DNA of 33,551 nucleotides from an uncultured Gemmatimonadota bacterium (GTDB lineage: Bacteria; Gemmatimonadota; Gemmatimonadetes; Gemmatimonadales; GWC2-71-9): assembly GCA_937871775.1 (NCBI GenBank), contig CALMOP010000051.1, positions 1-33,551 on the forward strand, written 5' to 3'. The translations under genes were made by a program, and so were the position numbers. This document shows, piece after piece, positions 2,349 through 15,672 of this stretch. A model generated the notes under the pieces. The model was not told where the DNA came from, made no database searches, and saw nothing but the letters and a program-made list of their open reading frames with translations. The stretch's first letter is position 1, and each line of letters starts with the position of its first letter.

Positions 2349-3902
2349 CTACACCGCGGGCTCGATCACGACCTTTCGGGCGACCACCCGGGTCAGCACG
2401 TCGGCCTGTTCGGTCGCCCCCCAGCATTCCAGCGCGAGATCCGCCTCGGAGAACCGGGGTACGGCGCGGATGGTGACCCGCGTGGGGCAGACCTCCAGGG
2501 CAACCTTTTCGACGCTCGCGGTGTGGCCCCGGTCCAGGCCTTCCGCGATCCGCAGAATCCCCGCCAGCCGACGGATGATGGCCTGATCCTCACGGGGCAT
2601 GCCGCGAAACACCCGATGCTTCTTTCGCGGGCCCCGGCGGCGGTGATACCGGCTGATCAGGGCCACCAGCTGGCGCTCACGCGGGCTAAACGGCAGTCGC
2701 TCGCCATGCATGATCAACTGGTAGCTGTGCTTGTGATGGGCGCGGTAGCTCACCAGCTGCCCCACATCGTGCAGCAGGGCCGCGGCTTCGAGCAGGGCCC
2801 GTTCCTCGGCCCCCGGGTCGAGCACATCCACCAGGAGATCAAAGAGGTTGAGCGCCAGCAGCCGGACGTGCTCGACATGGCGCCGATCGGAGTGACAGCG
2901 TTCGGCGAACTCCCGGATCAGTCGCAGCGGTTCCACCGCCGCGGGAGAGGCGTCGGCGCCGGCCATCTCCAGCAGCAGGCCCTCCCGCAGGCCGAAGGCG
3001 CTGATCTTCACCTCGCGCGCCTCGATCCGCTCCAGCAGCTCCGCGGTGACCGCGAGGCCGGCCACGATGATGTCGGCCCGCTGGGGATTGAGTCCCTCCA
3101 CCTGGGCCCGCTTCTCCGGACTCAGGCTGGCCAGCCAGTCCAGCAGATGTTCGACTTCGGCGATGCTGACGGTCGTCCCGTGCACCGGGTCGGCGGGAGA
3201 GAGGCCTCGTCGGGCCGCCACCATTCGCCCGAGGTTGGTGAAGGATCCCCCGGAGCCGATCAGGGTGCCGGCAGTCCAGTCGCGCATCGGCAGCTTGCGC
3301 CGGAATTGTCGCCGGGCGTACTCGCGGAGTTTGCGAACCGCCACGCGCTGCTCCGGCTTGCCGCCAAGGTGGAGCTCGGTGAGCCGTACCGCGCCGAAGG
3401 GCAGGGAGAGGGTGTGCTCGATCAGCCCGTCCACCGCGCTGATCAGCTCCAGGCTGCCACCCCCGATGTCGGCCACCACGGTCCGCCCGCCCTCCAGGGG
3501 AAAGTGGTGAGCCACCGACCGGTACGAGAGGGCGGCCTCGGTACCGGCGTCGATGATCCGGAGTCCGAGTCCGGTGTCGGCTCGGACCCGGGCCACGAAC
3601 GCCTCCCCGTTGGTCGCTTCCCGCACCGCGGCGGTGGCCACGGCGGCGATCCGGGTCACGCCCCGCCGCTCGCACACCCCCTGCATCCGGGTGAGCGCCT
3701 CCAGGGCGCGGTCCATGGCGGCCGGGTCGAGTCGCCCGGTCTGGGCGACCCCCGCGGCCAGCCGGGGTTGCTCCTTGATCTCGTCGATCACGCTCAGGCC
3801 GGAGTGGGGCCCGTATTCGGCCACCAGCAGACGGATCGAGTTGGAGCCGACATCAATCGCGGCCAGTCGCTCGCGGCGCTCCGGCAGGGGCACGACGGTC
3901 AT
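2349..3902 (-). CDS. ppx: Exopolyphosphatase / guanosine pentaphosphate phosphatase (Ppx/GppA) with C-terminal HD-like domain
   Basis: LAAIDVGSNSIRLLVAE, VVADIGGGSLELI, LIGSGGSFTNL motifs; C-terminal LLHDVGQLVSYRAHHKHSYQLI; ATGA overlap with phoU. Confidence 0.9.
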   Translation of the reverse strand: MTVVPLPERRERLAAIDVGSNSIRLLVAEYGPHSGLSVIDEIKEQPRLAAGVAQTGRLDPAAMDRALEALTRMQGVCERRGVTRIAAVATAAVREATNGEAFVARVRADTGLGLRIIDAGTEAALSYRSVAHHFPLEGGRTVVADIGGGSLELISAVDGLIEHTLSLPFGAVRLTELHLGGKPEQRVAVRKLREYARRQFRRKLPMRDWTAGTLIGSGGSFTNLGRMVAARRGLSPADPVHGTTVSIAEVEHLLDWLASLSPEKRAQVEGLNPQRADIIVAGLAVTAELLERIEAREVKISAFGLREGLLLEMAGADASPAAVEPLRLIREFAERCHSDRRHVEHVRLLALNLFDLLVDVLDPGAEERALLEAAALLHDVGQLVSYRAHHKHSYQLIMHGERLPFSPRERQLVALISRYHRRRGPRKKHRVFRGMPREDQAIIRRLAGILRIAEGLDRGHTASVEKVALEVCPTRVTIRAVPRFSEADLALECWGATEQADVLTRVVARKVVIEPAV

Positions 3903-4618
3903 GCGGGCTTCACCTTCCCGGTGGTGCCCGAGTTCCGGGGTTCGCCCCGGTCCTCGGCGTGGTGCTTGATCGATTTCCCCTCGACCAGGAAAACTACGTC
4001 CTCGGCGACGTTGGTCGCCAGATCCGCCACCCGCTCCAGGTTGCGGCTCACCAGGAACAGCTCCATGCCGGCGCCGATCATGTGCGGATCCTCCATCATA
4101 TGGGTGAGCAGGATCCGGAACACCGAGCGATGCAGGGCGTCCACCTTGTCGTCGCGGAGACAGATCTGGCGGGCCTCGGTCGCGTCACCGCGGATGAAGG
4201 CCTCCAGCGCGTCGGAGAGCATGTCCCGGGCCAGCCGGGCCATCTCGACGATCTCCGGTTCCGGGGCGATGGGCCGGGCCTGCGCCAGCCGCGCGGCGGA
4301 CTGCGCGATGTTCACGGCGTGATCACCGACCCGTTCGAGATCGTTGGCGATCTTGAGTGCCGAGGTGAGCATGCGAAGGTCTCGCGCCATGGGCTGCTGC
4401 AGGGCCAGCAGATTGATGCAGGTTTCCTCGATCTCCATCTCCATCCCGTCGATGATCCGATCATTGCGGATGACGATCTCGGCCTTGCCACTGTCCCGCT
4501 CCAGCAGGGCCTCGACCGCCAGGCCCAGGGCCGCTTCGGCCTCACCGGACATGGTGAGGAGCCGGACCTTCACGTCGTTCAGCTCGTCGTGAAAGTGGCG
4601 ATGCATGTCGGTGTTCAT
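3899..4618 (-). CDS. phoU: Phosphate transport system regulator PhoU
   Basis: [42 protein letters not shown]... [36 protein letters not shown]; two PhoU repeats; start overlaps the pstB stop. Confidence 0.95.
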
Positions 4619-5481
4619 CCGAATCTCCCGGTGATGTATGCCTCGGTGCGTTCCTGGGCCGGGGCGGTGAAAACCCGCTCGGTGTCTCCGAACTCGATCA
4701 GCTCGCCTCGGTCGAAGAAGGCGGTCCAGTCGCTCACCCGGGCGGCCTGCTGCATGTTGTGGGTGACGATGACGATGGTGTAGTCCCGCTTCAACTCGAC
4801 TAGCAGTTCCTCGATCTTCTGGGTCGCGATCGGGTCCAGCGCCGAGCACGGTTCGTCCATGAGCAGCACCTCAGGCTGGTTCCCCAGGGCCCGGGCCAGG
4901 CACAGGCGCTGCTGCTGGCCGCCGGAGAGGCTGGTGCCGGGCTCGTCCAGCCGGTCCTTGACCTCGTCCCACAGGGCAGCCTGGCGCAGGCTTCGCTCGA
5001 CCAGCTCGGGCAGGTCGCGCTGGCTCACCAGCCGGTTGAGCGCGGGGCCGTAGGCGACGTTGTCGTAAATGGACTTGGGAAAGGGATTGGGCCGCTGAAA
5101 CACCATACCCACGCGCTGCCGCAGGGAGACCAGATCCATGCTGCGGCTGAGCACTGAGGTAGTGCCCAGCAACAGGTCACCCTCGTACCGTGCCGTCGGG
5201 ATCAGGTCGTGCAGCCGGTTCACGGAACGCAGGAAGGTCGACTTGCCGCATCCGGAGGGTCCGATGATCGCGGTGACGGCCTTCTCGGGAATCTCGAGGC
5301 TGATGTCCCTAAGGGTCAGCTGGTCGCCACCGTAGGAGAACTGGAAGCCCCGGGCGGCGATGGCAGTCCGGGCCGGCCCGCCCGGTGGCGGGCTCCCCCT
5401 GCGCCGGGACAATGTGGTCCGGAACACTGGAAAAGCGGCCGAGGAGGCTGGGGCCGAGCGATCTGGGGTCATGGTGGTCAT
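4615..5481 (-). CDS. pstB: Phosphate ABC transporter ATP-binding protein PstB (copy 1)
   Basis: Walker [19 protein letters not shown], canonical PstB Walker [15 protein letters not shown]-terminus [10 protein letters not shown]; ~40-aa N-terminal extension if GTG/ATG at 5481 is the start. Confidence 0.95.
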
Positions 5482-6242
5482 CCGAATCGTCCCGTGATGT
5501 AGGCTTCCGTCCGTGCTTCCCTCGGGGTAGTGAAGAGCTGCCGAGTGGCACCGGTTTCGACCATGGTGCCCATGTAGAAGAAGCTGGTGGTGTCGCTGAC
5601 TCGCGCGGCCTGCTGCAGGTTGTGGGTGACGATCACGATGGTAAACTCGCGCTTCAGCGCGAAGACCAGCTCTTCGATCCGCTGGGTTCCGCCCGGATCC
5701 AGGGATGCGGTCGGCTCGTCCAGCAGGATCACCTCCGGCCTGGGCGCGAGGGTGCGGGCGATGCAGAGCCGCTGCTGCTGGCCGCCGGAAAGCGCCAGCG
5801 CGCTGCCGCGCAACCGGTCCTTGACCTCATCCCACAGCGCCGCCTGCTTCAGCGAATGTTCCACCACGCCATCGAGCTCGGAGCGCCCCGGCCGGCCGTT
5901 CACCCGCAGCCCCGCCGCCACGTTGTCATACACGGACATCGTGGGGAAGGGTGTCGGTTTCTGGAACACCATGCCTATGCGGCGACGCAGCTGCATCGGA
6001 CTGACCCGGCTGGCGTAGATGTCCTCGCCGTCCAGCAGCACCCGGCCGGTGATCCAGCCTTCCTCCGACAGCTCGTGCATCCGGTTCAGGGTGCGGAGAA
6101 AGGTCGACTTGCCGCACCCCGACGGGCCGATCAGGGCGTTGACGGTGTTCGCCTGAAATGTGATGGACACGTCCTTGACTGCGGTGAACTTGCCGTACAT
6201 CGCCGTGAGTCGGGCCGTCGCCAGCCGCACCGTCTCAGCCAT
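5478..6242 (-). CDS. pstB: Phosphate ABC transporter ATP-binding protein PstB paralogue (copy 2)
   Basis: [35 protein letters not shown], variant Walker [22 protein letters not shown]-terminus [10 protein letters not shown]. Confidence 0.93.
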
Positions 6243-7080
6243 TCAGGGTGAACCGCCGTCCGGTCGCCAGCCGCGCGAGCAGACTCAGGGTCAGCACCAC
6301 CAGGATCAGCACCAGCGCGGCCGCCCAGGCGAACCGATGCCACTCCTCGTAGGGGCCAGTCGCGTACTGGTACACGGTGAGCGGCAGCGCCGCCATCGGC
6401 TGGGTGATATCCAGTGAGAAGTACTGGCTGCCCAATGCCGTCAACAGGAGAGGCGCAGTTTCTCCCGCGATCCGCGCGATCGAGAGCAGGCTGCCGGTCA
6501 CGATGCCGGGCAGCGCCGTGCGGAGCACTATGGCCAGGCTGGTCCGCCATCTCGGATACCCCAGGGCCAGGGCTGCTTCCCGAAGCGAGTGTGGCACCAG
6601 CCGAATCAGCTCCTCGGTGGTGCGCATGACCATGGGGATCATGAGCATCGCCAGGGCACAGCTGCCGGCCAGACCGGAAAAGTGCCTTACCCGGGCCACG
6701 ATGAGGGTCCAGGCGAATACTCCCACGACGATGGATGGCGTGCCATTCATGACGTCCGCGAGGAACCGGGTCAGCTTCGCCAGCCGGGCTCCCGGGTATT
6801 CAGCGCAATAGATACCGGCTCCGACCCCGACCGGAACGCCCACCAGACTCGCCGTGCCGACGATGAGCAGGGTGCCGACGATCGCGTTGGCCACCCCGCC
6901 GCCGGTCTCTCCGGCAGGGACCGGCACCCGGGTGAAGAAGGCGATCGAGAGGCTGCCCGCTCCCTTGATGACCAGGTTCAGCAGGATGAAGACCAGGGGC
7001 AGGACCGCCACGATCACGGCGAGGATCATGAGGCCCACCATGCCGTTGCTGACCCAGCGCCGCAGGACGCGTCGGTTCAC
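6235..7080 (-). CDS. pstA: Phosphate ABC transporter permease PstA
   Basis: [16 protein letters not shown]..., [69 protein letters not shown] start overlaps pstC stop. Confidence 0.95.
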
Positions 7081-8048
7081 AGACCCTTGCCTCCGCCGGA
7101 GCCACGGGCGACCCGCCAGATCAGCAGCCGCGCCAGGGCATTGACCAGGACCGTGACCAGGAACAGCAGGAAGGCGACGTAGGCCAGGGCGCTGAAGTGC
7201 AGATCGGTCGCGGCCTCGGAGAACTCGTTGGCGATCACGGCCGCCATGGTGTAACCGGGTGCGAACAGGGAGGCGGAGATGGCGTTGCGGTTCCCGATCA
7301 GCATCGTCACCGCCATGGTCTCGCCCAGCGCCCGACCCAGGCCGAGGATGATGGCGCCGAGGATGCCCGACCGGGCGTAGGGGATGATGGCCGACATCAC
7401 CGCCTCCCACCGGGTCGCGCCCAGGGCGAGCGCGGCCTCGCGCTGACTTCCCGGGACCGCGATCAGGACCTCCCGCGCCACCGACATGATGAATGGCATG
7501 ATCATGATGGCCAGGATGATGCTCGCCGACAGCATCGACGGCCCGTAGATCGGCCCCTGAAAGAAGGGCAGGAATCCCAGCCCCGACCGGAGCACCGGAA
7601 ACACGAACTTCTTGAGGATCGGGATCAGGACGTAGATGCCCCACAGGCCGTAGACCACACTGGGGATCGCGGCGAGCAACTCGATCAGGAACGCGATCGG
7701 CTGGCGCAGGACTCGCGGGGCGAACTCAGTGATGTAGATCGCCACGCCCAGGGAGAGTGGCACCGCGATCAGCAGGGCCAGGAACGAGGACAGGAGCGTC
7801 CCCGCAATGAGTGGGAAGGCACCGAACTCCTCGGCTACCGGGTCCCAGGTGCTCCCGGTGACGAAGCCGAGTCCGTAGCGCGAGATCGCGAGCCTGGCCC
7901 CCGAGTGCAGCTCCAGCAGCAGGAACAGCAACAGGATGGGGATCGCGAGCGCCGCAATGGTCAGGGCGACCCGGAACATCCGGTCTCCCGCCCGGGAACC
8001 CTCCAGACCCCGGGCGGTGCTGGTACCTGGAAGGGATGGTGCGGCCAT
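7077..8048 (-). CDS. pstC: Phosphate ABC transporter permease PstC
   Basis: [98 protein letters not shown]. ATG at 8048 preferred over GTG at 8087, which lies inside the repeat array. Confidence 0.93.
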   Translation of the reverse strand: [323 protein letters not shown]

Positions 8049-8081
8049 GGCGGGCAGTGTACCGGGCCCTCCCCCGTGGGC

Positions 8082-8110
8082 GGTCACGTTGATGTAACGG
8101 ACCTGTCACG
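8082..8110 (-). promoter_or_regulatory. Predicted Pho box: three CGTKACM units at exact 11-bp period upstream of pstC
   Basis: Plus-strand GGTCACG (8082), TGTAACG (8093), TGTCACG (8104); minus-strand reading CGTGACA-N4-CGTTACA-N4-CGTGACC; 33 nt before the pstC ATG. Confidence 0.65.
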
Positions 8111-8129
8111 CCGGGGTGGAAATGACAGG

Positions 8130-8151
8130 CGGCGGGGGAAGACCCCCGCCG
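8130..8151 (-). terminator. Perfect 9-bp GC hairpin in the pstS-pstC intergenic region (terminator, attenuator or RNA-stabilising structure)
   Basis: CGGCGGGGG-AAGA-CCCCCGCCG (plus-strand reading), 33 nt downstream of the pstS stop; no U-tract on the minus strand. Confidence 0.6.
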
Positions 8152-8184
8152 CCCGATCCCGACAGCCCAAAGTCGTGTGTCGGG

Positions 8185-9210
8185 CTACTTCAGGCCCTTG
8201 ATACGCTCCTGCTCCAGCCTGATCACCTCGGCTGGCAGCGAGGCATACTGCAGCTGGTTCGCCATCTGCTGTGCCTCGTCGGTCAGCATCCAGGACAGAA
8301 AGTCCTTCAGCGCCTTGGACTTGGCGGCGTCCTTGAGCTTGGGACGCACCAGCAGCCAGGTAAAGGAAGAGATGGGATAGGAATCCTTGCCGGGTGCGTT
8401 GGTGATCGACACCCGGAAGTCGGTGCCCTTGTCGAATTTCGCGCTTGCGGCGGCGGCAGTGACACCGGCCAGCGATGGCACGATGTAGTCCCCTGCAGGG
8501 TTCTTCACCTGGGCATACGGGAGCTTGTTGGCGACCGCATAGATCAATTCGACGTATCCGATCGTTCCTTCAGTCTGCTTGACCTCCTGGGTCACCCCCT
8601 CGTTGCCCTTGCCGCCGAGTCCGACGGGCCAGTTCACCGAGGTGGCCTTGCCGACCTTGTCCTTCCACTCCGGCGAGACCTTGCTGAGGTAATCGGTGAA
8701 GATGTAGGAGGTGCCTGACCCGTCCGACCGGTGCACCACGATCAGGTCCGCGTTGGGAAGCTTCACGCCGGGGTTCAGGGCGGCGAGCCGGGAATCGTTC
8801 CACTTGGTGATGCGACCCAGAAAGATGTCGGCGATCGTCGGACCATCCAGCTTGAGCTGAGTGTCACCCAGCGCGGGGACATTCCAGGTCAGGACCACCG
8901 CACCCATGACGGTTGGCAGGTGCAGCACTTCCCCCTGCACGGTGGTCATCTGGTCGTTCGACATCGGGCCATCGGAAGCACCGAAGTCCACCGTGCCCTC
9001 GGTGTATTGCCGGATGCCGGCGCCGGAGCCGACCGACTGATAGTTGATCTGCACCCCGGTCTTCTGATGATAGGCGTCAAACCACTTGGTGTAGATCGGA
9101 TTCGGGAACGTGGCCCCGGCTCCAGTCAGGGTGGTCTGGGCTGTCGCGGGCGTGGCGCCGAAGAGCAGCGCCAGGGCGCCCAGCGTCAAGGGGGAGGAAA
9201 TGCGTCGCAT
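8185..9210 (-). CDS. pstS: Periplasmic phosphate-binding protein PstS
   Basis: Signal peptide then TTLTGAGATFPNPIYTKWFDAYHQKTGVQINYQSVGSGAGIRQYTEGTVDFGASDGPMS...VVHRSDGSGTSYIFTDYL. Confidence 0.96.
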   Translation of the reverse strand: MRRISSPLTLGALALLFGATPATAQTTLTGAGATFPNPIYTKWFDAYHQKTGVQINYQSVGSGAGIRQYTEGTVDFGASDGPMSNDQMTTVQGEVLHLPTVMGAVVLTWNVPALGDTQLKLDGPTIADIFLGRITKWNDSRLAALNPGVKLPNADLIVVHRSDGSGTSYIFTDYLSKVSPEWKDKVGKATSVNWPVGLGGKGNEGVTQEVKQTEGTIGYVELIYAVANKLPYAQVKNPAGDYIVPSLAGVTAAAASAKFDKGTDFRVSITNAPGKDSYPISSFTWLLVRPKLKDAAKSKALKDFLSWMLTDEAQQMANQLQYASLPAEVIRLEQERIKGLK

Positions 9211-9244
9211 CGATACGGTCTCCAACTTCGAAGGAGTAAGGAAC

Positions 9245-10285
9245 TCAGTAGGTGAACTGGCCCTGGACGTAGGCGGTGCTGCTGGTGGCCTTGAAGCCGT
9301 TGGGCTCATTGCCCCCCTGCCGACTTACGTGGTCCAGGTCGACCAGCAGTCGAAAATTTGGAGTGACCTGATAGGAAGCCCCTCCGATAATCCTGGTCAG
9401 CCGGTCGTTGGTCGCGGCGCTGGCGGTGTTCGGATCCGTGATGTCGACCCGGGCGAGGATGGCGATGGCGGAGTTGGGAACGTTGTAGACCCCGAAGGCG
9501 CTGAGTACCCGACCCTTTGCCACGCTGGTGCTGGCGGCGACGCTGTCCCGGGTCATGGCGTATTCCGCAGCCAGGGTGATCTGCTTCGACTTGTGGGACA
9601 GCATGCCGAGGTAGCGCTGGCGCTTGCCGCCCCCGGTCGGCTTGCCGTATTGGGCGTAACCGGTGAGCCGGAGGCCACCGACCTTTCCGGGGAGATCGGT
9701 GTTCATCAGCTTGTACGAGGCCCGGGCCATGAGGTCCTTGCGCTGGTCGCCGGGAGCGCCGCTGTAGTTCTCGCCGTTGTAGACCCCCACCTGGGCATTG
9801 AACTTCTCGTACCCCCAGTTCCCGTCGACGCCGGCACCGAAGTCCGAGGACGACACGTAGCCGCCCCGCTCCAGGGCCATCTGGCCCTGCATGCGGTAGT
9901 CCCACAGCGCCTCTTCCCAGTCGAGCCACGGGGTGTGGATCGCGCCCAGCTTGTAGGTCAGGTGGCTGTCCTCGGGGGTCCAGGCCAGGTAGGCGTATTT
10001 GATCCGGATGGCGAGATAGCTGGTGTTCGCCGAGCGGCCGGCCAGGTCCAGAGTGATGCGGGTGGTGAGTCCCTTGGGGAACTTGCCGATCGCGTTCACG
10101 TAGGCCCTGGTGACGTCGAAATTGTTCTGATGTCCGTTCAGGACGGTGTCCTTATTCAACTGGTACTGATACTGCACATACCCGACGCCGCCCACCGTGA
10201 CCGAAGGAGTCTGTGCGCCGAGCGCAACGCTCACAGCTGTGAGGAGCCCCAGGAGGGTGGCGAAGGAACGGAACCTGACTCCCAT
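9245..10285 (-). CDS. Outer-membrane beta-barrel porin, probably phosphate-selective (OprO/OprP-like)
   Basis: Signal peptide MGVRFRSFATLLGLLTAVSVALGAQ; alternating beta-barrel pattern; terminal aromatic residue (QGQFTY); first gene of the pst operon. Family assignment partly by context. Confidence 0.75.
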   Translation of the reverse strand: MGVRFRSFATLLGLLTAVSVALGAQTPSVTVGGVGYVQYQYQLNKDTVLNGHQNNFDVTRAYVNAIGKFPKGLTTRITLDLAGRSANTSYLAIRIKYAYLAWTPEDSHLTYKLGAIHTPWLDWEEALWDYRMQGQMALERGGYVSSSDFGAGVDGNWGYEKFNAQVGVYNGENYSGAPGDQRKDLMARASYKLMNTDLPGKVGGLRLTGYAQYGKPTGGGKRQRYLGMLSHKSKQITLAAEYAMTRDSVAASTSVAKGRVLSAFGVYNVPNSAIAILARVDITDPNTASAATNDRLTRIIGGASYQVTPNFRLLVDLDHVSRQGGNEPNGFKATSSTAYVQGQFTY

Positions 10286-10346: not shown

Positions 10347-10405
10347 CGTAACAAAGCCCCGGCGCTGTAACGGGATGACCCGCGCCAGGTAACGACGGGG
10401 TAAAG
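10347..10405 (-). promoter_or_regulatory. Predicted Pho box array upstream of the porin
   Basis: Plus-strand CGTAACA (10347), TGTAACG (10366), GGTAACG (10388), GGTAAAG (10399); the last three lie on an 11-bp lattice (spacing 22 and 11). Confidence 0.5.
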
Positions 10406-10570: not shown

Positions 10571-11407
10571 TCATCCGCATACGGCCGCCGCGGTAAACGC
10601 TTCCTCGAGTACGCGCCCTCGGTAGGACGGTGGTGTCGGAGCTCCGAAGTGATGCAACACCGTGGGCGGCACATCCAGGAGGTGAGCAGGCAGGTCGCCA
10701 CCCCGTCCCGGGACCACGCGACCTCCCAGCAGCAGCAGCGGGATGGCATCATTGAGTGGATGTGGATGGTCATGATCCCGCTCGAGCACTCCGCCTCCGC
10801 CGTGATCCGCCGTGATGACGACCAGATGTTCCGGTGAGCTCACCAGCGACATCAGGCCCGCCAGGGACCGATCAATGGCGCCGGCGGCCTGAAGGTACGC
10901 CGGCGACATCCAGCCCCAGGCATGCCCCGCCAAGTCGGCATCGTTCAGATACGCCACCACGAAAGCCGGACCCTGCGCCTTGTCCAGAGTGTGCAGGGCG
11001 GTGTCCACCAGCCGGGTTGGCTCGCTGGCGCTGGCCTTGAGGCGGGCGACTCCCCCGAGTCGAAGCAGCGCACCGGCGAGCCAGCGTACCGAACCCGGCA
11101 ATTCTGGAGTAACCACAGTTGTCTCAACGCCATGGCGCCGCAACTCCCCCGGGAGGGGCTGCAGGCCGCGGAACCGCGGCAGGGTCCATCGTGACTGGTT
11201 GTCCATGCCATGGACACCTGGGGACACCCCGGTTCCGAGCGAGGTGAGGGCGGCCACCGTCACACTCGGTCGCACGGTGACCGCGGAACCGGCGACCCAC
11301 CCGAGACCCATCATCCGATGCAGCACCGGTGTGGTGTCGTCGCGGATGGCATCGGGCCGAAGGCCGTCGATGACCACCAGGATGGCGGTGCGCTGTCTGT
11401 ATTCCAC
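10571..11407 (-). CDS. Alkaline-phosphatase-superfamily phosphodiesterase / nucleotide pyrophosphatase-like protein
   Basis: AILVVIDGLRPDAI, PSVTVAALTSLGTGVSPGVHGM, LNDADLAGHAWGW, LVVITADHGGGG: type I phosphodiesterase layout. GTG start at 11407 is a best guess. Confidence 0.82.
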   Translation of the reverse strand: MEYRQRTAILVVIDGLRPDAIRDDTTPVLHRMMGLGWVAGSAVTVRPSVTVAALTSLGTGVSPGVHGMDNQSRWTLPRFRGLQPLPGELRRHGVETTVVTPELPGSVRWLAGALLRLGGVARLKASASEPTRLVDTALHTLDKAQGPAFVVAYLNDADLAGHAWGWMSPAYLQAAGAIDRSLAGLMSLVSSPEHLVVITADHGGGGVLERDHDHPHPLNDAIPLLLLGGRVVPGRGGDLPAHLLDVPPTVLHHFGAPTPPSYRGRVLEEAFTAAAVCG

Positions 11408-11441
11408 TCCTGATCCCCCGTCTGAGATTGTGCATGGACGC

Positions 11442-11481: not shown

Positions 11482-11513
11482 AGCCCGCGACGACCGGACC
11501 GCTGTCGTGCCTC

Positions 11514-11531
11514 CGTGACCAGTCCGTCACC
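11514..11531 (+). promoter_or_regulatory. Predicted Pho box upstream of the GT4 glycosyltransferase
   Basis: CGTGACC-AGTC-CGTCACC, 11-bp period, 32 nt before the ATG at 11564. Confidence 0.45.
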
Positions 11532-11563
11532 CATTCGCGATGATGCGCAGGCATGGTATTCCC

Positions 11564-12733
11564 ATGCGAATCCTTTTCTGTACCGACACATTCCTCCCCG
11601 AGGTCAACGGGGTTACCACGGTCCTGGCGCAGATGCGGGAGGGCCTGGCTCGGCGTGGGCACCAGGTGCGGATCGCGGCCCCTCGATACCCGACCCCTGC
11701 CACGGACGAATCGGGTGTGTGGCGCCTGGGTGCCGTGGCATGCCCGGCCTATCCGCAGGTGCGGCTGTCATGGCCGTGGGGTCGTGGACTTGGAACCCAC
11801 TTCGACCAGTTCAGTCCGGAACTGGTACACGTCGTGACGGAAGGACCGCTCGGAGTCTTCGGCCGTCACTACGCCCAGCGTCGCGGCCTGCCGCTGGTTT
11901 CCTCCTTTCACACCGACTTTCCTCGTTACGCGGTGCGGTACCTGGGTCCGCTCGCGGCCGCCCCGACCTGGGCCTGGCTGCGTCGGTTCCATCAGGCCGC
12001 GGTCCTGACCCAGACTCCAAGCGATGTAACCCGCAATGAATTGCTGGTACACGGCATTCCCGGCGCGGTTGTCTGGGGCCGCAGTGTGGACGCGACCTGG
12101 TTCCGGCCGGATCGGCGCTCCGAGGGACGGCGGGTTGGGCTGGGTGCCGCGGGCCGGGCGCTGGTCCTGCACGTCGGCCGGCTGGCGGTGGAGAAGGACG
12201 TGGATACACTGGTGGCCTCGTTCACGGAGGCTCATCGGCGCCTTGGGGAGCAGGCGGTGTTCTGCGTCGCCGGCGACGGACCCCGCGGGCCCCAGGTGCG
12301 GGCGGCGCTGCCATTCGCGCGCCATGTCGGCTTTCTCGATCGCACGACGCTCGCCGATCTGTATGCGGATGCCGATGTCTTCGTGTTCCCCTCGCCTACG
12401 GAGACCTGCGGCCTGGTCGCGCTGGAGGCGCTCGCCTCGGGGATTCCGGTGATCGGGGCCAATGCAGGGGGAATACCCGAGAGCCTTCGCGAAGGCCTGA
12501 CTGGATATCTGATCGGCCCCGGGGACGCCGAGGCTTTTGCGGCGCGCATCGAAGAGCTGGTGCGGGATGGAGACCAGCGCCGGGCGATGGGGGAGGCGGC
12601 CCGGGGGTTTGCGGTCGGGCGTGATTGGGCTCGCGAGCTGGATGCGCTGGACGAGACCTACCGCAGGGTGAGGTGGACCACCACGGCGGCGGCCGCGCCC
12701 AGCGCCTGTCCCACCACGACGTCCGTGACGTAG
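11564..12733 (+). CDS. GT4-family glycosyltransferase (GT-B; SQD2/MgtA-like)
   Basis: MRILFCTDTFLPEVNGVTTVLAQMREGLARRGHQV, SSFHTDFPRYA, VWGRSVDATWFRP, LHVGRLAVEKDVDTLV, VFPSPTETCGLVALEALASGIPVIGANAGGIPE. Confidence 0.92.
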   Translation: MRILFCTDTFLPEVNGVTTVLAQMREGLARRGHQVRIAAPRYPTPATDESGVWRLGAVACPAYPQVRLSWPWGRGLGTHFDQFSPELVHVVTEGPLGVFGRHYAQRRGLPLVSSFHTDFPRYAVRYLGPLAAAPTWAWLRRFHQAAVLTQTPSDVTRNELLVHGIPGAVVWGRSVDATWFRPDRRSEGRRVGLGAAGRALVLHVGRLAVEKDVDTLVASFTEAHRRLGEQAVFCVAGDGPRGPQVRAALPFARHVGFLDRTTLADLYADADVFVFPSPTETCGLVALEALASGIPVIGANAGGIPESLREGLTGYLIGPGDAEAFAARIEELVRDGDQRRAMGEAARGFAVGRDWARELDALDETYRRVRWTTTAAAAPSACPTTTSVT

Positions 12734-13210: not shown

Positions 13211-13251
13211 ATCGCCCGGGAGCGTCACGCTATCGCCCGGAGCTGGTCACG
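13211..13251 (-). promoter_or_regulatory. Possible Pho box within an imperfect ~21-bp tandem repeat upstream of PAP2
   Basis: Plus-strand ATCGCCCGGGAGCGTCACGCT / ATCGCCCGGAGCTGGTCACGAT; CGTCACG (13223) and GGTCACG (13245) are 22 bp apart. Confidence 0.35.
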
Positions 13252-14968
13252 ATTCCGTCTCGGATCGATCCGGGAGCCACACCCCGATCTCGGTACCCTG
13301 TCCAACGGTGCTGGCGGCCGTAATCCGACCCCCATGGGCCTCCACCAGATGGCGCACGATCGACAGCCCCAGGCCGGTCCCGCCCTCGGCACGAGACCGG
13401 TGGGGATCGGCACGATAGAAACGCTCGAAGATCCTGGGCAGGTGCTGGGAGGGGATCCCGCTGCCGGTGTCGCGGACGGCCAGGCTGACGCCTCCGGGCT
13501 CCCGGGACGCACGCACCGAGATCCGCCCGCCGGGCGGGGTGTAGCGCAGGGCATTGTCGTAGAGATTGCTGAGGACCTGACGCACCGCTTCGGGGTCGGC
13601 CCACACGCTCTCGGCGCCGGCTGTGATCTCGGTACTGAATCCGACACCCTGACGCTCGGCGCGATCGGTGAAGAAGCTCCAGCTCTCGCCGAGGAGGCTC
13701 CTGGTGTCGACCTCCTGTGGCTTCGGCTCCCAGCTTCCCGATTCGATCCGGGAGAGGTCGAGCAGGTCGTCGACCAGCCGCTGCATCCGCCGGGCGTTCC
13801 CGGCGATGACTTCCAGGAACCGCTGGGTGGTCTCGGCGTCGGGGGAATCGTTGACCAGGGTTTCCGCATATCCGGAGATCGAAGTGAGCGGGGTCTTGAG
13901 TTCGTGCGACACGTTGGCCACAAAGTCTCGGCGCACCGTCTCCAGGCGACGCAGGGCGGTCACGTCGTGCATGACCAGGAGCGCGCCCCCTTCCGGCAGC
14001 GGTCGTCCGGAGAGCAGGACGTTGCGGCCTTCGAGTTCCAGCTCCCGATCCGGAACGCTCTCGCCGCCCAGCGAGAGATCCACCACCTCCCGGGCCACCT
14101 TGGCACGGAATAACTGGGGCAGCGCGGGAAGCGGTTCCCCGGTTTCGTACCCGAGCAGCCGGCGGACCGCGGAGTTGGCGGTGACAATGCGACCGCGACT
14201 GTCCGCCGCCACCACTCCGTCCACCATCGCCTCCACCAGGGCGGCACTCTCGGCCCGCTCCTGGCGGAGCAGGCTGAATCGCTCGTCCAGTTGCTGGTGC
14301 ATGACCCGGAGGGCCTGCACCAGGTCATCGATGTCACTGATGCCAGACCGGGGAAATCGGGGGGAGACTCCCGCCGCGATCAAACGCGCCGAAGCGGTGA
14401 TCTCGGTCAGGGGGCGGGCGATCGAGCGCCCGGCCACGAACGCGAAGGCCGAGCCCAGCAGCAGGGCCAGCAGGGCGGCCGCGATGATGGCCCGCTGGGC
14501 CCGCCGGAAGATCTGCTGCGCCCCGTCCAGCGACGTCGCCACCCGGACCACGCCGGGTCCTCCCCGCACGGCGACGTACAGCATGGGCCGGTGCACCGTC
14601 CTGCTCTCCCGCTGGTCGGTCCCTACGCCGCTCAGGAGTGCTGCCTGGACCTCCGGGCGGCCGGCATGGTTCTCGATGCCTGACAGACTCTCCACCGGTG
14701 CGTCGCTCTCGGCCACCACCATACCGTCCGGGCGGATGAGGGTGATCCGGAGTCCGGTGCCCCGGGCGATCTCACGGACCGCCACCGGCCAGGCGGCGGA
14801 GTCCGCCGGCAGGGTGCGGGCAAGCAGCCGGGCGTCCCGCTCGAGGGCGCGCCGAATGTCGGCCTCGAGGTCCCGCCGCAGCGTGACATCGGCCGCCAGT
14901 GCCAGGGTGATGATCGCCACGACGCTGACCCCCAGGGTGCCAAGCACCAGCCGCCTGGCGAAGGTCAT
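13247..14968 (-). CDS. phoR: PhoR-type sensor histidine kinase (HAMP-PAS-HisKA-HATPase)
   Basis: Two TM segments, HAMP-like linker, PAS-like region, H-box FVANVSHELKTPLTSISGY, N-box VLSNLYDNALRYTP, DTGSGIP, GTGLGLSIVRHLVEAHGG. Confidence 0.9.
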   Translation of the reverse strand: MTFARRLVLGTLGVSVVAIITLALAADVTLRRDLEADIRRALERDARLLARTLPADSAAWPVAVREIARGTGLRITLIRPDGMVVAESDAPVESLSGIENHAGRPEVQAALLSGVGTDQRESRTVHRPMLYVAVRGGPGVVRVATSLDGAQQIFRRAQRAIIAAALLALLLGSAFAFVAGRSIARPLTEITASARLIAAGVSPRFPRSGISDIDDLVQALRVMHQQLDERFSLLRQERAESAALVEAMVDGVVAADSRGRIVTANSAVRRLLGYETGEPLPALPQLFRAKVAREVVDLSLGGESVPDRELELEGRNVLLSGRPLPEGGALLVMHDVTALRRLETVRRDFVANVSHELKTPLTSISGYAETLVNDSPDAETTQRFLEVIAGNARRMQRLVDDLLDLSRIESGSWEPKPQEVDTRSLLGESWSFFTDRAERQGVGFSTEITAGAESVWADPEAVRQVLSNLYDNALRYTPPGGRISVRASREPGGVSLAVRDTGSGIPSQHLPRIFERFYRADPHRSRAEGGTGLGLSIVRHLVEAHGGRITAASTVGQGTEIGVWLPDRSETES

Positions 14969-15672
14969 GGGCGACGAGCCCCCTTCTCGGCCGACTTGAA
15001 TCGGTACCCGAAGCCCCGTACCGTCTCGATCAGGTCGCCGGCGGCACCCAGCTTGGAGCGGAGCCGCTGGACGTGCATGTCGACCGTCCGGGTCTGGATG
15101 TCCGGCTGCGCTTCCCAGACCGTTTCCAGCAGCTGGGGTCGGGTCTGCACCCGGCCCCGCCGCTCGAGCAGCGTGACCAGCAGCTTGTATTCGGTGGCGG
15201 TGAGCTCAATTTCCGTACCCCCGACCGCGACCCGGTGTGCCGCGCGGTCGATGACGATACTCCCCGCAGACAGCGTGGACCCGCCGGCGACGGCCGGAGC
15301 GGCGAGGCGTCGGAGCAGGGCCTTCACTCGAAGGGCCAGCTCGGCGGGGGAAAACGGCTTGGTGAGATAGTCGTCGGCACCGAGCGAGAGTCCCCGGATG
15401 CGATCGGGCTCTTCGCGCCGGGCGGTCAGCAGGATCACTCCCACGTCCCGAGTCTCCTCGAGCCGCCGCAACTCGGCCAGGACGTCGTAGCCGGAGACCC
15501 CGGGCAACATCACGTCCAGTATGATGATGTCGGGTCGCTCCTCGCGAGCGGCCTTGAGCGCGTCGGGGCCGTTGGCGGCGGTGGAGACCCGATGGCCCGC
15601 CTTGGCCAGGTGATAGGCGACCAGCGCCGTGATGTCCGGCTCGTCGTCGACGACCAGGATGCGGTGAGTCAC
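14965..15672 (-). CDS. phoB: PhoB-type OmpR-family response regulator
   Basis: ILVVDDEPDITALVAYHLAKAGH, IILDVMLPGVSGYDVL, LTARREEPDRIRGLSLGADDYLTKPFSPAELALRVKALLRR plus winged-helix C-terminus; ATGA overlap with phoR. Confidence 0.93.
   Translation of the reverse strand: MTHRILVVDDEPDITALVAYHLAKAGHRVSTAANGPDALKAAREERPDIIILDVMLPGVSGYDVLAELRRLEETRDVGVILLTARREEPDRIRGLSLGADDYLTKPFSPAELALRVKALLRRLAAPAVAGGSTLSAGSIVIDRAAHRVAVGGTEIELTATEYKLLVTLLERRGRVQTRPQLLETVWEAQPDIQTRTVDMHVQRLRSKLGAAGDLIETVRGFGYRFKSAEKGARRP

Follow-up and report, generated by a model that had tools for sequence, protein, structure and literature searches.

The DNA upstream of pstC in the window, a stretch of 33,551 nucleotides from the metagenome-assembled genome (3.06 Mb, 68% GC) of an uncultured Gemmatimonadota bacterium, harbors an array of three tandem units. 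This array is very probably the Pho box of the pstC promoter, i.e. the phosphate-sensor switch of the phosphate importer, to which a PhoB-like regulator would bind. The minus strand at 8082 to 8110 reads CGTGACA-GGTC-CGTTACA-TCAA-CGTGACC with an exact 11-bp period, just as an earlier note on this DNA had described it, and all units point in the sense orientation of pstC. A -10 element TACACT (8056–8061, minus strand) follows 21 bp after the GTGAC of unit 3. Unit 1 (CGTGACA, 8104–8110; TGTCACG on the plus strand) takes slot -48, counted from where the -10 element begins, unit 2 (CGTTACA, 8093–8099; plus strand TGTAACG) slot -37, and unit 3 (CGTGACC, 8082–8088; plus strand GGTCACG) slot -26, the expected place of a -35 element. 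The array reaches 36.3 of a maximum of 45.2 bits with a matrix that was trained on the pstC promoters of relatives and from which the window was left out. The best scores in 200 block-shuffled windows average 6.1 bits (sd 3.3), the highest being 17.2.

The main support for this assignment comes from conservation in the family. The nearest named pstC relatives of the window are Gemmatimonadetes MAGs, and pstC is detected in most family genomes; 60 loci were retrieved, and together with the window 58 have readable pstC upstream DNA. An array on the 11-bp period precedes pstC in 38 of the 58 genomes, with three units in general and two in one group, and the box occurs in 14 genera. The array is followed by TAnnnT at a distance of 21 bp (n = 27), 22 bp (n = 3) or 10 bp (n = 8), and no other offset scanned yields TAnnnT. 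Among 39 box-bearing promoters the only exception is locus L127, whose array is weak and lacks a -10 element. In the genus-weighted profile of the promoters with 21-bp spacing (class A), the information sits in GTGAC, CCGTTACA, GTGAC and the -10 element, with almost none in the linkers and the 21-bp spacer. GTGAC of unit 1 is conserved in class A, GTTAC of unit 2 is found at about 98% in the family profile, and GTGAC of unit 3 is in most cases followed by G. In L128, L129, L139 and L141, pstS ends within the box, and its TGA stop codon forms part of the GTGAC of unit 1.

The exact two-unit core YYGTTACANNNNYGTGAC has 49 matches in 102 family genomes, compared to 4 for the reversed pattern. At least 44 of the 49 are located upstream of pstC (34), the porin-pstS operon (8), pstS (1) or phoB (1); two further matches are found where contigs break off, in surroundings like those of pstC, and the remaining three are followed by other genes or by no gene. 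The matches are thus concentrated at phosphate genes instead of being as common at random ones, and the array is kept in related pst operons with its spacing to the -10 element locked, as the earlier note had expected of a genuine site. Its proposed motif scan was borne out at the level of the family but not in the source genome, where the exact core occurs only once, as the array itself, and where 38 matches with up to two mismatches against 55 for the reversed control represent background without enrichment. The source genome alone would therefore not show significance, whereas conservation does, and loose matches in this genome were dropped as evidence. The unit CGTKACM-N4 was also drawn too narrowly: a strict consensus is ruled out by the GTCAC and GTAAC of glycosyltransferase boxes (see below), and the last base varies. 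The tandem unit itself stands, and its spelling in the Gemmatimonadota family is (C)GTnAC, with a fixed middle CCGTTACA.

Where pstC lacks a box, the site is usually found farther upstream. Of the readable loci, 19 lack a pstC box, and 15 of these have a site of at least 10 bits 1.2 kb or 2.2–2.4 kb upstream, where pstS or porin-pstS begins. Among the four remaining loci, three end before the operon head. In genus g37, pstC mostly follows directly after pstS among the loci listed. Such relocation would be expected of an operon promoter that may occupy either the head of the operon or a place inside it. The porin-pstS promoters of seven loci (L157, L165, L170, L177, L179, L243 and L251) read GTTACA-N5-GTGAC, often with a further GTGAT-like unit 22 bp on, and lack a clear TAnnnT at the distance seen in pstC promoters.

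The gene arrangement in the window agrees with an internal promoter between pstS and pstC, as had been proposed. A stem-loop (8126–8155, minus strand) with a 13-bp GC stem and a UCUU loop separates the pstS stop from the box; it is terminator-like (-34.2 kcal/mol, z -5.3) with a poor T tract. The open reading frame of pstS (TIGR00975, 399 bits) extends from its first ATG over 8185–9309 on the minus strand, with the true start probably nearer ATG 9210, and the ORF of a phosphate-selective porin (PF07396, 9245–10462, minus strand) lies ahead of it. The DNA upstream of the porin has no convincing box, as a weak core with two mismatches at 10356–10373 is at background, and no box was found upstream of phoB in the window. 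On the other side, pstC (7077–8048, minus strand; TIGR02138, 315 bits, above cutoff) is followed by the rest of the transcription unit, pstA, pstB, pstB, phoU and ppx (2349–7644, minus strand). Two different pstB genes stand in tandem within this one pst operon (4615–6242, minus strand).

The ATG of pstC at 8048 comes 7 nt after the -10 element, and the corresponding gap in the other relatives with a box is 5–10 nt. A -10 element that ends about 5–10 nt before the start codon is one mark of a leaderless gene, so that a leaderless pstC mRNA with ATG 8048 as its start is predicted. The GTG at 8087 lies inside the box and upstream of the -10 element and thus cannot serve as start codon on a transcript from the predicted promoter, which supports ATG 8048 as the start, the codon that had been preferred before.

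The presumed binder is a PhoB-like response regulator encoded 7 kb away (14965–15672, minus strand), next to a PhoR-like histidine kinase (13247–14968, minus strand). When phosphate is low, PhoR would phosphorylate the regulator, which would sit head to tail on the units, each molecule taking up 11 bp and the last lying over the -35 region. The bound regulator would recruit the housekeeping sigma factor, and transcription of a leaderless pstC-pstA-pstB-pstB-phoU-ppx mRNA would begin at or beside the ATG. The permease, ATPase and PhoU part would in this way be transcribed apart from porin-pstS, which would end at the stem-loop just upstream.

The array carries four of the features by which Pho boxes are defined: tandem direct repeats of about seven bases with an 11-bp period and a conserved column profile, non-random placement at phosphate-acquisition genes (at least 44 of 49 core matches, control 4), a constant placement across the -35 region with respect to the -10 element (38 of 39 promoters; 10 bp in E. 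coli phoA and phoB), and a PhoB/PhoP-type regulator and a PhoR encoded in the same genome (13247–15672). Counted against the assignment are the last unit of the commonest class, which lies one turn farther from the -10 element than in E. coli phoA, the score of the PhoB-like protein, the lack of a convincing box at phoB and the porin in the window, and the unenriched loose matches in the source genome. The regulator is named PhoB-like and not PhoB because its best model, TIGR02154 PhoB, gives 250.9 bits and stays below the cutoff of 296.2.

This score, together with matches to the CreB, MtrA and RpaB models, leaves some room for another OmpR/PhoB-type regulator that controls the pst genes from the array in place of the neighboring protein, and OmpR-family regulators often bind tandem units of 10–11 bp. 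Such a binder is nevertheless improbable, as nearly all core matches belong to porin-pstS, pstC and phoB, TIGR02154 is the best of all models, and phoBR lies near the pst genes in the window and in several sister-family genomes. The regulator is 44% identical to E. coli PhoB, and the recognition helices are close (RTVDMHVQRLR and RTVDVHIRRLR, respectively), with RTVDxHxxRLR in common.

The orientation of the box can be questioned on the grounds that the plus-strand CTGTCACG and CGGTCACG resemble E. coli CTGTCAY letter by letter. Plus-strand TGTNACG units of this CTGTCAC-like kind would serve plus-strand transcription or repression of pstC, but the -10 element with its locked spacing and the start codon are on the pstC side, in E. 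coli register on the pstC strand, and the plus strand leads only into DNA antisense to pstS. The opposite-strand reading was dropped on the register of the -10 element and is given a very small probability. Smaller still, close to negligible, is that of a chance or structural repeat, for instance a segment of the pstS terminator or a signal for translation. The strong stem-loop directly upstream, the near-palindromic GTCAC/GTGAC and the abundance of loose arrays in the source genome would fit such an origin; the conservation data in effect refute it, given that 14 genera keep the fixed period and the fixed -10 distance and that 49 core matches face 4 in the control.

Within the Pho-box assignment, which largely upholds the first reading, the comparison of promoters adds two features to it, the predicted leaderless start codons and an 11-bp lattice tied to the -10 element with an apparent slip of one turn. 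The lattice has slots at -48, -37, -26 and -15, counted from the start of the -10 element, of which class A fills the first three and class B the last two. Their spacings of 21 bp and 10 bp differ by one 11-bp unit. The 10-bp class B is found in one clade (g4, g5 and g8; support 99/97), while class A is the more widespread. Class A is probably the older state, since it occurs on either side of the midpoint split in the pstC tree, and class B probably stems from one slip by a turn.

Residues W184, G185, V190 and D192 in a loop of E. coli PhoB have been implicated in polymerase binding (PMC3348028). This loop is WEAxPDIQT-like in all sampled Gemmatimonadota, among them the regulator of the window and PhoB proteins of the sister family, versus WGTNVYVED in E. 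coli. It is conceivable, at slightly less than even chances for the two parts jointly, that phosphate promoters of Gemmatimonadota follow a rigid lattice locked to the -10 element of leaderless genes, whose geometry slipped by exactly one DNA turn with function kept, perhaps with an altered sigma-contact loop in PhoB, and that the use of slots varies by gene and clade, with -48/-37/-26 at pstC, -26/-15 in one clade and all four at the glycosyltransferase.

The closest known counterpart is the Pho box of E. coli phoA, phoB and pstS, in which PhoB binds CTGTCAY-N4 units. Both have 11-bp direct repeats over the -35 region in sense orientation, a GT-N-A-Y core and the same kind of target genes. 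In the E. coli K-12 genome record, phoA reads GTCAC-GGCCGAGACT-TATAGT and phoB GTCAT-AAATCTGACG-CATAAT, and this N10 spacing between GTCAY and the -10 element is identical to that of class B. The box, which had been called lineage-specific, thus deserves the term for its consensus and not for its register, which is that of E. coli. Unlike in E. coli, the unit is C[CT]GTnAC with the middle CCGTTACA, promoters of the most frequent class contain three units of which the last is 21 instead of 10 bp from the -10 element, the start codon follows 5–10 nt after the -10 element, and an internal promoter precedes pstC. The PhoP box of B. subtilis consists of AT-rich TTAACA-type tandem units near an 11-bp period; it shares this period, and TTnACA resembles GTTACA, but it differs in its AT-richness and its spacing to promoter elements. 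The PhoP box of Streptomyces, with GTTCACC direct-repeat units in operators of varied unit number and organization (PMC4415409), shares the 11-nt direct repeats, the high-GC host and a similar GT..AC-like unit. It differs in the unit consensus and in its varied operators, compared to the uniform pstC array of Gemmatimonadota.

The second-best site in the window (20.8 bits) is a further Pho box on the plus strand, CGTGCC-N5-CGTGACC-N4-CGTCAC (11503–11530), in slots -48, -37 and -26, with a degenerate unit GCGAT (11537–11541) in slot -15. A putative -10 element CATGGT (11552–11557) follows 21 bp after GTCAC (TATCGT, CATCGT and CATCCT in relatives), and 6 nt later starts the ATG of a GT4 glycosyltransferase gene (11564–12733, plus strand). 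Eight genomes from the genera g3 and g8 (L266–L273) carry orthologues with 46–53% identity, and in several of these genomes the gene is near the pst genes. All eight orthologue promoters read GTTAC-N6-GTnAC-N6-GTCAY-N6-TTGAC-N10-[TC]ATC[GC]T and fill all four slots, and the GTG start codon lies about 6–7 nt beyond the -10 element, so these genes are predicted to be leaderless as well. In the same-genus genome L265, the second box is only degenerate. A type I phosphodiesterase family gene (10571–11410, minus strand) is divergent from the glycosyltransferase gene, and the DNA upstream of it may hold a degenerate minus-strand box, which L265 has in part.

The glycosyltransferase is, judged from these promoters, a likely member of the regulon. 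It is lipid-glycosyltransferase-like, as its best NCBIfam models include GlcN-phosphatidylglycerol synthase (129 bits) and alpha-monoglucosyl-diacylglycerol synthase (87 bits), both below cutoff. In other bacteria, phospholipids are swapped for other lipids under phosphate limitation (PMC4796936, PMC9239053). By analogy, the second box suggests phosphate-controlled lipid replacement via the glycosyltransferase.

A related, more variable box also exists outside the family. In 30 pst loci of the sister family f2, the mean best score is 15.2 bits on the pst strand versus 6.8 bits on the other strand (p = 2e-6), and many of these loci have GTTACA-type pairs ahead of pstS or pstC, which together argue for such a box. 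In a phylum-wide scan, genomes beyond the family contain the exact core far less often. The best forward matches in a sample of 80 named loci from several phyla, restricted to close pstC relatives, belong to Gemmatimonadota.

The array belongs to the known Pho box class as a variant of this lineage, with a spelling for which no earlier description in Gemmatimonadota was found. In the literature collection searched, no paper names both "Pho box" and "Gemmatimonadetes", and a survey of the phylum (PMC10581226) names, in the relevant passage, only the pst and PhoR-PhoB genes. A usable definition of the Pho box is thereby provided for a large and hardly cultured phylum, with which phosphate-starvation genes become predictable from MAGs. 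It flags the glycosyltransferase as a likely member of the regulon and points to possible lipid replacement under phosphate limitation, and the natural one-turn variants of the promoter offer material for studying how PhoB meets RNA polymerase.
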